DNA from: Lachnospiraceae bacterium
GTDB lineage: Bacteria > Bacillota > Clostridia > Lachnospirales > Lachnospiraceae
Assembly (NCBI GenBank): GCA_014804675.1
Contig: JAAUZH010000013.1
Span: 252,733-316,732 of the forward strand
DNA: 64,000 nucleotides
Direction: 5' to 3'
This document shows positions 9,248-49,230 of this stretch, piece by piece. A model generated the notes under the pieces. The model was given only the letters and a program-made list of their open reading frames with translations, was not told the DNA's origin and ran no database searches. Positions within the stretch are counted from its first letter, which is position 1. Each line of letters starts with the position of its first letter. The position numbers and the translations under genes are program-made.

Positions 9248-10807
9248 TTATTTATTGATATACCGCCCTGCAATCTCCCGAAGCTTCTCCGGATGTCTTT
9301 CATACCATCTTTCATAAACAGGCGTATCCGAAGCCGCAATGGTTTTTCCCAGCTCTACAAGAAATTCCGGTATATCTGCGGCAAGCATGGAACCTAAGCT
9401 TTCTCCAAACCGCTCCTCCTGCCTTGCCGCATTTCCTCCTACAAACAGATTAAATGCAGGCTGAGGCTTTTCATCCACCCGTTTTACAAAACCATGGAAT
9501 CCCATGCTTCCTACCTGATGAGTGCCGCAGGAGGATACACAACCCGAAATATGCAGCTTTGGCAGCACATGATCTGCAAATCCTTCTTTTCTCACTGCTT
9601 CCACAATTGCCTTTAAAAGTCCCTGGGAATCCTGCAGGCCGATTTGGCAGATAGAACTGCCGATACAGGCAACAGAAGCCTCCAGCCTGTTTCCGGCGCT
9701 GTCCTTTGTAATGTCCAGTATTGTTTCTGCCTCTTTCCCGTTCAGGTTCAGGATGTATACGCTTTCATCCGGGGAAAGAGCCAGCTCCACCTGATCCATA
9801 TCCTTTATGGCCTGATATAGTGCCTGTAACGTTTCCGGTGCAATGCAGCCGCCTATAGGATGATAATGAACAGCGCACAGTCCATCCTGCTTCTGTTTGA
9901 TAACACGTCCTGCCCTTCCTTCTGGTATCGTGTCTGCCTGCCCGGTTTTTGTAATGGTTCTTTCTTCTGCTTTTATATCCAGTTTTTCTCTTTCAAAAAC
10001 CTGCTTCAGCTTTTCTTCATATGCTTTTCTATATGGTTCAGGACCTCCCAGCGCTTCCTGCATATAGCGGGTTCTGGCTTTGTTTCGCTGCTGATAATTG
10101 CCATATTCCGTAAAGGTATCTACCATAGCCCTAATGTAATATAGAACTTTTTCCGGCTCTACTCCCTGGGCTACAAGAACGCCCATTTTATAATTGTTCC
10201 CAAGACCTCCTGCACTGTACACGTCAAAGGTATGATTTTTAGTGGCAACAAAACCCAGATCCCGGAAGGTTGCATGCACTATGTTATCCTTGGAATTAGA
10301 AAATGCCACCTTCAATTTCCTTGGCAGCTTTACCGTCTTAATAAGGGACAGCAGATAATCTGCAGCTTTTCTCGCAACGGGAAGCACATCGAATTCCTCT
10401 CCCTCTTCCACACCGGACAATGGCGAAACCATGACGTTTCTTGGGAAATCCCCGCCGCCTCCTCTTGTAATGATTCCAACCTGAAATGCTTTTTCCATAA
10501 TCTGACACACCGCTTCTTCCTCCAGATTATGGAGCTGTATAGTCTGACAGGTAGTAAAATGAATCTTATCAATTTCATATTTTTTTACCATATCTGCAAC
10601 AAATTTCAGTTGTTCCTGATTGATTCTGCCCCCTGCCAATCTCAGACGGAGCATACTTTTTTTCCCTCCTCTTTGGGCATAGCTGCCAAAGCCTCCGGAA
10701 ATTCCTTTATATTCTGCAGTAGTTACCTCTCCATTATAAAATCCTGCTGTTACCTTTTTGAATTGCTCCAAATCTTCTTTGAATTCCTGGCATAATTGTT
10801 CTTTCAT
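9248..10807 (-). CDS. Siroheme/4Fe-4S nitrite or sulfite reductase (single-chain)
   Basis: A 519-residue haemoprotein of the sulfite/nitrite reductase family, which performs six-electron reduction of sulfite to sulfide or nitrite to ammonia. Two repeats of the ferredoxin-like half and siroheme domain are present. The cluster and siroheme ligands appear as C-x5-C (ACIGSSICQIG) and C-x3-C (SGCVSSCGTHQ) around residues 395-450. Basic siroheme-carboxylate residues occur in the N-terminal half (RLRLAGGRIN and TTCQTIQLHN). No flavoprotein or ferredoxin partner gene is adjacent, so an independent ferredoxin is likely. It lies 47 bp downstream of the GTPase-nuclease gene and may share its transcript. 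Substrate choice cannot be settled from sequence. Confidence 0.88.
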   Translation of the reverse strand: MKEQLCQEFKEDLEQFKKVTAGFYNGEVTTAEYKGISGGFGSYAQRGGKKSMLRLRLAGGRINQEQLKFVADMVKKYEIDKIHFTTCQTIQLHNLEEEAVCQIMEKAFQVGIITRGGGGDFPRNVMVSPLSGVEEGEEFDVLPVARKAADYLLSLIKTVKLPRKLKVAFSNSKDNIVHATFRDLGFVATKNHTFDVYSAGGLGNNYKMGVLVAQGVEPEKVLYYIRAMVDTFTEYGNYQQRNKARTRYMQEALGGPEPYRKAYEEKLKQVFEREKLDIKAEERTITKTGQADTIPEGRAGRVIKQKQDGLCAVHYHPIGGCIAPETLQALYQAIKDMDQVELALSPDESVYILNLNGKEAETILDITKDSAGNRLEASVACIGSSICQIGLQDSQGLLKAIVEAVRKEGFADHVLPKLHISGCVSSCGTHQVGSMGFHGFVKRVDEKPQPAFNLFVGGNAARQEERFGESLGSMLAADIPEFLVELGKTIAASDTPVYERWYERHPEKLREIAGRYINK

Positions 10808-10854: not shown

Positions 10855-13488
10855 TTATTTACTATCCCGCTTTATGGCATCTATCTGTTTTGCGGTTTCT
10901 CCATTAATGGAATCCATAAAATAATGTTTCGTCTTCGGCTGATTTTCTTTATATTCCCTGCATATGCCTTCATTTGCCAGCCGGATTTCTTCTTTTAGCT
11001 CTCTTGCGGAAATCAGGCTGCATCCCTGCCCCCTTATGATAATCTGCTCAAGTCCGTCGGAGGTTGCCACAGTAACCCGGTATTTCCCTCCGTTTTCATG
11101 GGCAAATTTCTCTATATACTGGTCTGCAGTTTCCGCCTCTTTTGTATATACTACATGAATATTGTGATAATCCTCCATTTCCCTCTGATGCCCCGGTACC
11201 CGGTAAGCATCAAATACTGCAATCAGGTTACACTTTCGGATTCCCTGATAGTTGCACAGAATATCCAAAAGTCTTCCCCTGGCGCCATCAATACTTACTT
11301 TTGCAAGCTCTGCAAGCTCTTCCCATGCAAAAATAACGTTGTAACCGTCTATCAGCAGATATTCTTCTTTTGGCTCCTGTTTCTTTGCCGGACTGCTTTT
11401 TATGAGTACAGGCTCCCGGTTTCTTTCAGGCATACTCTTCTCTTTCTTATTGGCATGGTAGGTCCGGTTTAGAATCGCATCGATTTCTTCTGTTCCAATC
11501 CACTTTTCTTCCCCAGGCTTTTGCTCCGGACATTTTCTATTTTCCTCCTTTTCCGGCTCCTTTTCCACTTCCATCTGGCTTTCCACATGCCTGTAAGCTT
11601 TTACCTTATCCCATTTCACAGAAAAGCCGGCGCCATGGGCGCAGAATATGGAACCTGCAGGATTTTCCATATCCCTCTCCGAATCATACTTCATTGCTTC
11701 TATGACTTCTTCCTGATTATGGCATGGTTCATATCCCTTGAAAGCACAAGACAATCTTCCCTGCCCTCTTGTATAAGTATTGACTTCTTTCTGATAACCA
11801 TTCATAGAAGCTGCCGGAGCAAAACCGGTCAACACTGCCATATCCCCGTCAGATTGGAAAGGCGAAAAGCTTCCATGCATCCTTTCAATATCAGACATTG
11901 CCCTGCCAATGCTTTTTTCCGGCACCTCCAGCCGAAATTCATAATAAGGCTCTAACAATACCGACTTTGCTTCCTTCAGTCCCTGTCTTACCGCACGATA
12001 AGCAGCCTGTCTGAAATCCCCGCCTTCCGTATGCTTTTGATGGGCTCTGCCTCCCACCAGAGTTATTTTCATATCGGTAATGGGAGAGCCGGTAAGCACT
12101 CCCTTGTGCTCCTTTTCCTCCAGATGTGCCAAAACAAGCCTCTGCCAGTTCCTGTCAAGCAGCTCTTCACTGCACCGTGCGGCAAACTGCAGGCCGCTTC
12201 CGGGTTCTCCCGCTTCCAGCAAAAGATGGACTTCCGCATAGTGCCGAAGAGGTTCATAATGCCCTACTCCCTCTGCCCATTCCTCTATTGTCTCTTTATA
12301 AACAATATGCCCCTCTCCAAATTCCACTTCTACCCCAAACCGCTCTAAAATCAGGCTCTTTACTATTTCAATCTGCACTTCCCCCATAAACCGCACCTGA
12401 ATCTCTTTTGACTGTTGGTCCCAAAGGATATGAAGCTCCGGCTGTTCTTCCTGTAACTGTTCCAGTCTGGAAAGCATAACCGTTTTATCGCATTCCGGCG
12501 GCAGCTTTATCTGATAAGTAAGCACCGGCTCCAGTATAGGGCAAAAAACCGCCGCTTCTATTCCAAGCCCCATTCCCGGCCTTGTCCCGGAAAGGCCGGT
12601 TACCGCACAGACCGTTCCCGCCTCTGCCTCATCTGCCACTGTATATTTTTCTCCGGAATAAATACGAATCTGGGTTATCTTTTCCTGACTTTCTGCCGGC
12701 GCACTCCTTACTTTTAAGCTTCCTCCCGTAATCTTCATAAAGGTAAGTCTGTTTCCACGGTCATCTCTGGCAATCTTAAAAACTCTTGCACCAAATTCCT
12801 CCGGATAGGAGGGCATTTGAATATAGGCTTCCATATCAGCAAGCAGCTCCCCGACTCCTTCCAGCTTTAATGCCGAGCCAAAAAAGCAGGGAAAAAGCTT
12901 CCTTTTTAAAATCAGCCTTTTTATAGATTTCGTTTCCAGCTTTTTTGTTTCTAAGAACTGTTCCAAAGCCGCTTCATCGCACATGGCAATATTCTCATAA
13001 AAGGCCGGCTCCGTTTTTCTTCCAAAATCCACGCAATTTTCGTCCAGTTTTTCCTTTAATTGTTTCAAAAGCATTTCCCGATTGGTACCGTTTTGGTCCA
13101 TCTTATTGGCAAAAAGAAATACCGGAATACGGTATTTCTTTAAAAGCTGCCATAAAGTTCTGGTATGGGCCTGTACGCCATCCGCACCGTTAATGACCAG
13201 AATGGCATAATCAAGCACACTAAGAGTCCGCTCCATTTCCGCTGAAAAATCCACATGTCCCGGAGTGTCTAACAGCGTAATCTGCATATCCTTCAGGGAA
13301 AATACTGCCTGCTTGGAAAAAATCGTAATTCCCCTTTCCTTTTCCAAAGCATAGGTGTCCAGAAATGCATCCTTCTTATCCACCCTGCCCAGGCTGTGTA
13401 TGCTGCCGCTTTCATATAACAGGGCTTCCGATAAAGTTGTCTTTCCGGCATCTACATGAGCCAGAATTCCAATTGTCAATTGTTTCAT
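10855..13488 (-). CDS. TetM/EF-G-like translational GTPase fused to a YacP/Rae1-type NYN nuclease domain
   Basis: 877 residues. The first 640 or so follow the ribosome-protection-protein layout: G1 AHVDAGKTT, G2 RGIT, G3 DTPGH, G4 NKMD, then domains II-V ending in RGQGRLSCAFKGYEP. A charged linker (about 640-705) leads to an NYN domain (about 710-877). Four acidic motifs are visible there: LLIDGYN, AVFDAYR, ETADQY and ATSDG. These match the active site of YacP/Rae1, the ribosome-dependent mRNA endonuclease of Bacillus. Inference: the GTPase part docks at the ribosomal A site and delivers the nuclease. In TetM the domain IV tip carries a Pro-containing loop; here the aligned loop reads RAHQKHTEG, so tetracycline release is not assured. 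A promoter lies 60 bp upstream. Confidence 0.88.
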   Translation of the reverse strand: MKQLTIGILAHVDAGKTTLSEALLYESGSIHSLGRVDKKDAFLDTYALEKERGITIFSKQAVFSLKDMQITLLDTPGHVDFSAEMERTLSVLDYAILVINGADGVQAHTRTLWQLLKKYRIPVFLFANKMDQNGTNREMLLKQLKEKLDENCVDFGRKTEPAFYENIAMCDEAALEQFLETKKLETKSIKRLILKRKLFPCFFGSALKLEGVGELLADMEAYIQMPSYPEEFGARVFKIARDDRGNRLTFMKITGGSLKVRSAPAESQEKITQIRIYSGEKYTVADEAEAGTVCAVTGLSGTRPGMGLGIEAAVFCPILEPVLTYQIKLPPECDKTVMLSRLEQLQEEQPELHILWDQQSKEIQVRFMGEVQIEIVKSLILERFGVEVEFGEGHIVYKETIEEWAEGVGHYEPLRHYAEVHLLLEAGEPGSGLQFAARCSEELLDRNWQRLVLAHLEEKEHKGVLTGSPITDMKITLVGGRAHQKHTEGGDFRQAAYRAVRQGLKEAKSVLLEPYYEFRLEVPEKSIGRAMSDIERMHGSFSPFQSDGDMAVLTGFAPAASMNGYQKEVNTYTRGQGRLSCAFKGYEPCHNQEEVIEAMKYDSERDMENPAGSIFCAHGAGFSVKWDKVKAYRHVESQMEVEKEPEKEENRKCPEQKPGEEKWIGTEEIDAILNRTYHANKKEKSMPERNREPVLIKSSPAKKQEPKEEYLLIDGYNVIFAWEELAELAKVSIDGARGRLLDILCNYQGIRKCNLIAVFDAYRVPGHQREMEDYHNIHVVYTKEAETADQYIEKFAHENGGKYRVTVATSDGLEQIIIRGQGCSLISARELKEEIRLANEGICREYKENQPKTKHYFMDSINGETAKQIDAIKRDSK

Positions 13489-13547: not shown

Positions 13548-13576
13548 ATTTTACTATATGCGGGTGGTTTTTTCAA
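13548..13576 (-). promoter_or_regulatory. Sigma-A promoter of the GTPase-NYN gene
   Basis: Minus strand: -35 TTGAAA, a 17-bp spacer and -10 TAAAAT, with the start codon about 60 bp downstream. Confidence 0.75.
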
Positions 13577-13980: not shown

Positions 13981-14245
13981 GAGACGAAACAGCGGCAGAG
14001 GGAGGCGGTATGGTTCTATGGGGTGGGGCATTGTTTTTGATGGCATTTTTCCTTAACAGGCTGCCCAATACCCAGGGTAAAATTGCCATGGACGGCAATT
14101 TTAGGCATATTGCGGCACGGACGCCGCTATATGCCGACCCGAACGGTACCAATACCCTCACCAGCCTGTTTAGGAAAAACACCATCAAAAACACCGCCCC
14201 GCCCCATAGAACCATACCGCCTCCCTCTGCCGCGTCCCCTTCTCC
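13981..14245 (+). repeat. Long-hairpin element, family 2, copy G
   Basis: Arms 13992-14063 and 14162-14233 (72 bp) are complementary with about six mismatches around a 98-bp core. The core is nearly identical to that of copy H (48992-49217) and contains the inner hairpin GGTAAAATTGCC...GGCAATTTT. The left edge reads GAGACGAAACAGC in both copies. The right arm overlaps the 3' end of the kinase gene ending at 14185. Confidence 0.92.
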
Positions 14246-48980: not shown

Positions 48981-49230
48981 GAGACGAAACAGCAAAAGAG
49001 GGAGGGGAAGGATTTCACTGCATTGTTTTTGACAGCACTTTTCCTTAACAGCCCGCCCAAAACCCAGGGTAAAATTGCCACGGACGGCAATTTTAGGCAT
49101 ATTGCGGCACGGATGCCGCTATATGCCGACCCGGACGGTACCAGCACCCTCTCCGGGCTGTTTAGGAAAAGCGCTGCCAAAAACACCGCAGTGAAATCCT
49201 TCCCCTCCCTCTTTTGCGTCCCTCCTGCCA
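48981..49230 (+). repeat. Long-hairpin element, family 2, copy H
   Basis: Arms 48992-49055 and 49154-49217 (64 bp) are complementary with the same mismatch positions as copy G (for example CATTG/CGGTG and CTTAA/CTAAA). The 98-bp core is almost identical to copy G. The outer half of the arms is quite different from G yet still self-complementary. The element ends about 35 bp before the stop codon side of the PrsA-like gene. Confidence 0.92.

Follow-up and report, generated by a model that had tools for sequence, protein, structure and literature searches.

Rae1 (YacP) of Bacillus subtilis has been described as a ribosomal A-site mRNA endonuclease, and its cuts permit rescue by tmRNA (PMC12320835). 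A study that likewise presents B. subtilis Rae1 as a ribosomal A-site endonuclease describes that loss of rae1 suppresses the swarming defect of an efp mutant, and that rae1 is adjacent to and co-transcribed with yacO (PMC6613710). Tet-type GTPases are described as entering the A site of paused ribosomes and as needing GTP hydrolysis to leave it, and Pro509 of TetM is located in the drug site (PMC8161019). The two types are united in a protein that Atkinson et al. (PMC4342817; BMC Genomics 16:78, 2015) reported in ten clostridial species, with a translational GTPase of the Tet subfamily in front of a YacP-like NYN RNase domain. The statement given to this Tet–NYN fusion in that paper is short and proposes a resistance mechanism with no test; replacement of rae1 and a distinct domain IV tip are not part of what it reports. 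A literature search found no experimental work or biochemistry on any fusion member. In public records, relatives are annotated as "translation factor GTPase family protein" or as "TetM/TetW/TetO/TetS family". The fusion architecture has been known since 2015 and is not new here. The replacement of rae1 by the fusion and the assignment of its GTPase to a subfamily appear to be new, and together they make a testable claim of what had been an oddity of annotation.

The stretch of DNA analyzed here (hereafter the window) comprises 64,000 nucleotides of a Lachnospiraceae genome. A single minus-strand ORF at 10855–13488 (ATG start, coordinates including the stop, no internal stops) codes for 877 amino acids; all parts of this gene given below are on the minus strand. 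A sequence-only reading of the window had claimed a TetM-like GTPase with intact G motifs, fused to a Rae1/YacP-type NYN domain with its four acidic residues. Both halves are present in this ORF and the observation of a GTPase–NYN fusion is confirmed. Pfam matches, all of which exceed their own cut-offs, identify the five EF-G domains: the G domain (PF00009, GTP_EFTU, E 2.4e-52; residues 4–224, 12817–13479), domain II (PF22042, EFG_D2; residues 232–302, 12583–12795), domain III (PF14492, EFG_III; residues 320–391, 12316–12531), domain IV (PF03764, EFG_IV, and the AlphaFold2 model; residues 394–508, 11965–12309) and domain V (PF00679, EFG_C; residues 510–592, 11713–11961). They are followed by a complete NYN_YacP (Rae1-type) endoribonuclease domain (PF05991, E 1.3e-51; residues 711–873, 10870–11358). 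Hence, a Tet-type GTPase and a YacP-like NYN domain form a single clostridial protein, with an architecture identical to that of the fusions of Atkinson et al. The closest PDB relatives of the whole protein are TetO, TetM and EF-G. The AlphaFold2 model has a mean pLDDT of 79.9 with confident GTPase and NYN domains, and a Foldseek search of this model against the PDB places EF-G structures on top.

The GTPase half carries the G1–G5 motifs of an EF-G-type translational GTPase (AHVDAGKTT, RGITI, DTPGH with the catalytic His, NKMD and GSALK) and the EF-G-like domains G, II, III, IV and V of tetracycline ribosomal protection proteins. Among the named genome loci the G motifs are nearly invariant: T55, D74 to G77, K129 and D131 are unsubstituted, and H78 is changed once. 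Domain IV is the part of TetM and EF-G that enters the A site. Its tip in the fusion had been noted to be unlike that of TetM, and this holds for both loops compared. Loop I (EGVGHYEPLRHYAEVH; residues 406–421, 12226–12273) has invariant columns and is a subfamily signature at the place where TetM has PPNPFWAS, while loop III (residues 480–493, 12010–12051) reads GRAHQKHTEGGDFR and not YYSPVSTPADFR. The drug-displacing Pro509 of TetM aligns with Lys485, which is nearly invariant in the fusions.

Three groups of GTPases were compared, the fusions (group A), unfused relatives of 640–690 aa (group B; 41–48% identity) and canonical Tet proteins (group C; 31–37%). Groups A and B have in common the domain IV loops GHFEPLRHYAEV and AH.KHT.GGDFR, from which the domain IV loops of group C differ. 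They also have in common a conserved extension at the C terminus of the GTPase (CHN...Y..D...S.FC.HG..F.V.W; residues 589–633, 11590–11724). In the tree, a long, fully supported branch splits A and B from C and EF-G, and the fusion clade is separate from TetM/O/W and TetB(P)-like proteins. The best-matching NCBIfam model is tet_protect (NF012153), although the score of 427.7 bits is below its cut-off of 775; the TetM/W/O/S model gives 314.7 bits against a cut-off of 1100. Judged by sequence and phylogeny, the fusion GTPase belongs to a Tet-like subfamily of its own, which has a distinctive domain IV tip. Compared with Tet(M) and Tet(O), with which it shares the five EF-G-like domains and the GTPase motifs at ~32% identity, the fusion has other loops I and III and another C-terminal extension, is without P509, adds the NYN domain and is a chromosomal near-core gene. 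The unfused group B proteins, in contrast, share with the fusion both the domain IV signature (GHFEPLRHYAEV, HT.GGDFR) and the C-terminal extension, are without linker and NYN domain, and were never found alongside the fusion. One example with 51% identity (Clostridia members, 41–48%) is LSL_RS10690 on the megaplasmid pMP118 of Ligilactobacillus salivarius UCC118 (L168, 3986–5920). This gene adjoins rpsN (ribosomal protein S14) and is annotated as tetracycline resistance, and its loop III deviates (KASNVHTVGGDFR).

Turning to the nuclease half, the NYN_YacP match scores 175.3 bits against a cut-off of 24.6 and covers positions 1–165 of the 166 in the profile. In a phmmer search of the PDB with the NYN part, B. 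subtilis YacP/Rae1 was the only protein matched (5MQ8 and 5MQ9, E ~2e-23). The four catalytic residues, Asp714 (codon at 11347–11349), Asp760 (11209–11211), Asp789 (11122–11124) and Asp811 (11056–11058), are invariant in the 38 fusions of one sample and in all 79 aligned named genome loci, about 117 fusions in total. The latter were fetched independently and chosen by their GTPase motifs, so that their NYN residues constitute an unbiased test. A lack of conservation of these residues in orthologues had been named by the sequence-only reading as an outcome that would speak against it; the opposite was found. Rae1 and the fused NYN domain share the full-length domain, all four acidic residues and the motifs DGYN, VFDA, TKE.ETAD..IEK and VATSD..EQ. 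However, B. subtilis makes Rae1 as a small separate protein from a gene that lies between rlmB and sigH, whereas the NYN domain of the fusion is C-terminal to a 630-residue GTPase and encoded at an unrelated locus. A highly divergent fusion was also seen (L127; G149:C1:1210700–1213900), in which the GTPase has expansions, the domain IV signature is gone and the NYN motif is altered (ESADFTLTKL) with part of it lost. It is perhaps a decaying or re-purposed member; decay of fusions occurs, yet looks rare.

The two halves are joined by a linker (residues 634–708, 11365–11589) that is predicted to be mostly disordered, with pLDDT below 50 at residues 642–665 and 676–705 of the AlphaFold2 model. 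The distance from W626, the last conserved residue of the GTPase, to the NYN domain is 79–154 residues in 61 fusions (median 93). Amid the disorder, the model has a short helix (residues 666–680, EEIDAILNRTYHANK; 11449–11493) with the motif EE[LI]..I..RTY, which is partly conserved in fusions. This helix might serve for docking to a partner, either ribosomal or tRNA.

The distribution of the two forms of the nuclease was surveyed in 150 Lachnospiraceae (one genome per genus), 243 Clostridia and 101 genomes across the phylum; Bacilli were sampled as far as they fell in the phylum draw, and through plasmids. NYN_YacP was found in 137 of the 150 Lachnospiraceae, stand-alone in 8 and fused in ~129, with a few fusions truncated where a contig ends or the frame breaks. 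The remaining 13 genera are without both halves, so that some lineages can do without the gene. Among the 243 Clostridia the fusion is present in 88 and stand-alone NYN_YacP in at least 65, and the stand-alone form prevails across the phylum, with the fusion in a minority of families. Named hosts of the fusion are Butyrivibrio, Ruminococcus flavefaciens, Intestinimonas butyriciproducens, Anaerovorax odorimutans, Fusibacter, Monoglobus pectinilyticus and Agathobacter rectalis.

These two forms exclude each other. A genome search showed that the fusion is the sole NYN_YacP domain in the source genome, and no genome with both the fusion and a resolved stand-alone NYN_YacP was found among the 150 Lachnospiraceae, the 243 Clostridia and the 101 phylum genomes. 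In three genomes an apparent second NYN domain was rejected, being a sub-threshold false positive of the Lrp/AsnC type. One genome with 5% contamination (G030) has the fusion and an NYN fragment at a contig edge and is ambiguous. The exclusion in the class sample has a Fisher p of 6e-16, a nominal value as the genomes share ancestry. The evidence from the locus is independent of this p-value. In most Lachnospiraceae with the stand-alone gene the order is cysS–mrnC–rlmB–NYN–sigH, which matches the surroundings of B. subtilis rae1, where sigH comes next. In the source genome (G000:C9, locus L289; cysS, rlmB and sigH identified by NCBIfam), on the other hand, the sigH frame starts 24 nt after rlmB with nothing between, so that the ancestral rae1 slot of this operon is empty, and the fused gene is elsewhere. 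The same empty slot is present in most fusion-bearing Lachnospiraceae examined. Together, the empty slot between rlmB and sigH and the lack of genomes with both forms indicate that the fusion has replaced rae1; it is the usual single copy of the Rae1-type nuclease in Lachnospiraceae, in place of the stand-alone gene.

Both states occur inside each of four families (f1, f21, f22 and f26). Moreover, in one genus (g181), one genome (G200) has the NYN gene before sigH and two fusion-bearing genomes (G171 and G323) do not. These patterns suggest that the replacement probably happened several times. In both trees, the fusion of the source genome groups with fusions of other families and not with those of other Lachnospiraceae, a placement that hints at horizontal transfer. 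The reverse process was also considered, since a first NYN tree nested the stand-alone NYNs of Lachnospiraceae within the fusions, as expected if fission had removed the GTPase; this reading was withdrawn. A single clade of stand-alone NYNs is not rejected (p-AU 0.42), and most stand-alone NYNs occupy the rlmB–NYN–sigH slot, which makes retained ancestral genes more likely than fission in Lachnospiraceae.

The fusion also avoids the unfused GTPases of group B. In the class sample, group B occurs in 0 of the 88 genomes with the fusion and in 16 of the 155 without it (p = 7e-4), and the corresponding numbers for Lachnospiraceae are 0/129 and 6/21 (p = 4e-6); part of this non-coexistence is shared ancestry. 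In contrast, canonical Tet proteins (group C) co-occur freely with the fusion, in 7 of the 88 class-sample genomes (p = 0.5) and in ~20 fusion-bearing Lachnospiraceae. A genome with the fusion thus seems to need neither rae1 nor a group B GTPase as separate genes, while a canonical resistance protein is not made redundant. A group B GTPase is encoded at a distant locus in 6 of the 8 Lachnospiraceae genomes with a stand-alone NYN; since these NYNs form one clade, the link may be a single event. We do not claim that the unfused GTPase and stand-alone rae1 are linked in general, as the association is strong in Lachnospiraceae and not significant elsewhere (10/16, p = 0.11). Group B GTPases often occur with no NYN_YacP in the genome (6/16), which indicates that this GTPase has a role of its own. 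Two class Clostridia genomes (G255 and G362) have two group B GTPases, or a group B GTPase and a canonical Tet-type protein.

The domain make-up, the conserved catalytic residues, the replacement of rae1 and the non-coexistence with group B are directly supported by the data, and the fusion is likely to supply the Rae1 activity of the cell. We propose that it serves these bacteria as their Rae1, with the nuclease mounted on a translational GTPase that would bind in the A site. In this model, the EF-G/TetM-like half would bind paused or stalled ribosomes on which the A site stays vacant. GTP hydrolysis and release of the GTPase half would make room in the A site for the NYN half, which, tethered by the ~90-residue linker, would take the A site as domain IV leaves and cut the mRNA. 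The cut would start decay of the message, and the ribosome on the truncated mRNA would be left for rescue by tmRNA. Domain IV and Rae1 would compete for the A site, so that the two modules probably work in succession, via the long flexible linker, and not together. Ribosome binding, sequential hand-over, A-site cleavage and the rescue outcome are here drawn by analogy from Rae1, TetM and EF-G, and we give the scheme as a whole, in which a GTPase that seeks out vacant-A-site ribosomes carries a ribosome-dependent mRNA endonuclease with the function of Rae1, an even chance. Weighing against it are the genera that lack both halves, the group B GTPases in genomes without NYN_YacP, the part of the non-coexistence that is due to shared ancestry, and the competition of domain IV and Rae1 for one site. 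More tentatively, the fusion might be a GTP-gated A-site mRNA endonuclease whose GTPase senses vacant A sites and passes the site on to the nuclease tethered to it, and which is the standard factor for both rescue and mRNA decay in most Lachnospiraceae, having displaced stand-alone Rae1 several times. If this is true, most Lachnospiraceae of the human gut unite target search (the GTPase) and mRNA cutting (the nuclease) in one molecule, a design that to our knowledge is undescribed for any known bacterial rescue factor. The presence of a gene labeled as tetracycline resistance in nearly every such genome would likewise be accounted for, and counts of gut resistance genes that include the fusion would be inflated. 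Since the fusion replaces rae1, the idea is directly testable by complementation in B. subtilis.

Could the two halves instead have independent jobs on one chain? The NYN domain would then be an ordinary Rae1 and the GTPase a separate ribosome factor, acting in back-translocation, A-site clearing or subunit assembly, with the link reflecting co-expression or shared residence on the ribosome and not delivery. The long, mostly disordered linker is compatible with this, and each half can evidently work alone, as group B GTPases and stand-alone rae1 exist separately, at distant loci in Lachnospiraceae, and outside this family are not significantly tied to each other. However, the halves have been kept fused across very many lineages with both active sites retained, the fusion excludes the separate rae1 and the separate GTPase alike, and the two parent proteins share their site of action on the ribosome. 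We therefore view independent jobs as possible but doubtful. Processing of stable RNA is less probable still. Here, the NYN domain would process tRNA or rRNA, and the GTPase would place it on ribosomal particles for assembly or quality control. NYN domains were indeed first proposed to act in tRNA/rRNA maturation (Anantharaman and Aravind 2006, as cited in PMC4342817), yacO and rae1 are described as belonging to one pathway in B. subtilis (PMC6613710), and the ancestral operon neighbor rlmB modifies 23S rRNA. Yet the YacP that has been characterized, Rae1, has mRNA in the ribosomal A site as its substrate, and the fused NYN domain keeps the Rae1 sequence signature over its whole length, which makes this explanation improbable.

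The role proposed by Atkinson et al. (2015), protection of the ribosome against tetracycline or another A-site drug with the added RNase as part of the resistance mechanism, has the Tet-like five-domain architecture in its favor, together with tet_protect as the best NCBIfam model and the public labeling of relatives as TetM/TetW/TetO/TetS family. Moreover, an intrinsic chromosomal tetM of the Bacillus cereus group, which may not belong to the fusion subfamily, confers resistance when expressed (PMC5209696). Against this, the score is far under the tet_protect cut-off, Lys485 replaces the Pro509 of TetM, loops I and III are wholly different, and the fusions form a clade apart from the TetM/O/W and TetB(P)-like proteins. 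The gene is also near-universal in Lachnospiraceae in a context that is not mobile, and, as discussed above, some of its hosts additionally carry canonical Tet genes. A resistance role is less likely on these grounds, and we consider it unlikely overall; the literature search found no tetracycline MIC data for any fusion member. The warning that a drug-resistance label alone would be misleading is borne out by the separate subfamily, the absence of P509 and the near-universal, single-copy chromosomal gene, with further support from the genomes that have both the fusion and canonical Tet genes. With the domains, the intact catalytic residues and this warning upheld, the interpretation given in the sequence-only reading is supported in part. 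An A-site endonuclease carried by a translational GTPase remains the reading that we prefer.

With respect to expression, a possible sigma-A promoter of its own with a short leader (TTGAAA-17-TAAAAT, 13548–13576, minus strand) precedes the gene; it is a consensus match only, in a region with 6 such matches against 4.9 expected. Upstream of the fusion there is no RNA family and no credible terminator that would point to attenuator or leader control as in tetM. A promoter with no attenuator is consistent with a housekeeping rather than a drug-induced gene. Among 21 fusion neighborhoods no widely shared neighbor genes and no conserved operon partners were found. In the window, a nitrite/sulfite reductase-like gene (9248–10807, minus strand) begins 47 bp past the fusion gene on the same strand, a pairing that is absent from the 20 other neighborhoods. 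The TwoAYGGAY RNA motif (Rfam RF01731) occurs twice in the window, at 14030–14195 (plus strand, 90.3 bits) and 49022–49187 (plus strand, 86.2 bits); one copy has the fusion gene on one side and a histidine kinase gene on the other, amid mirrored short ORFs on both strands.
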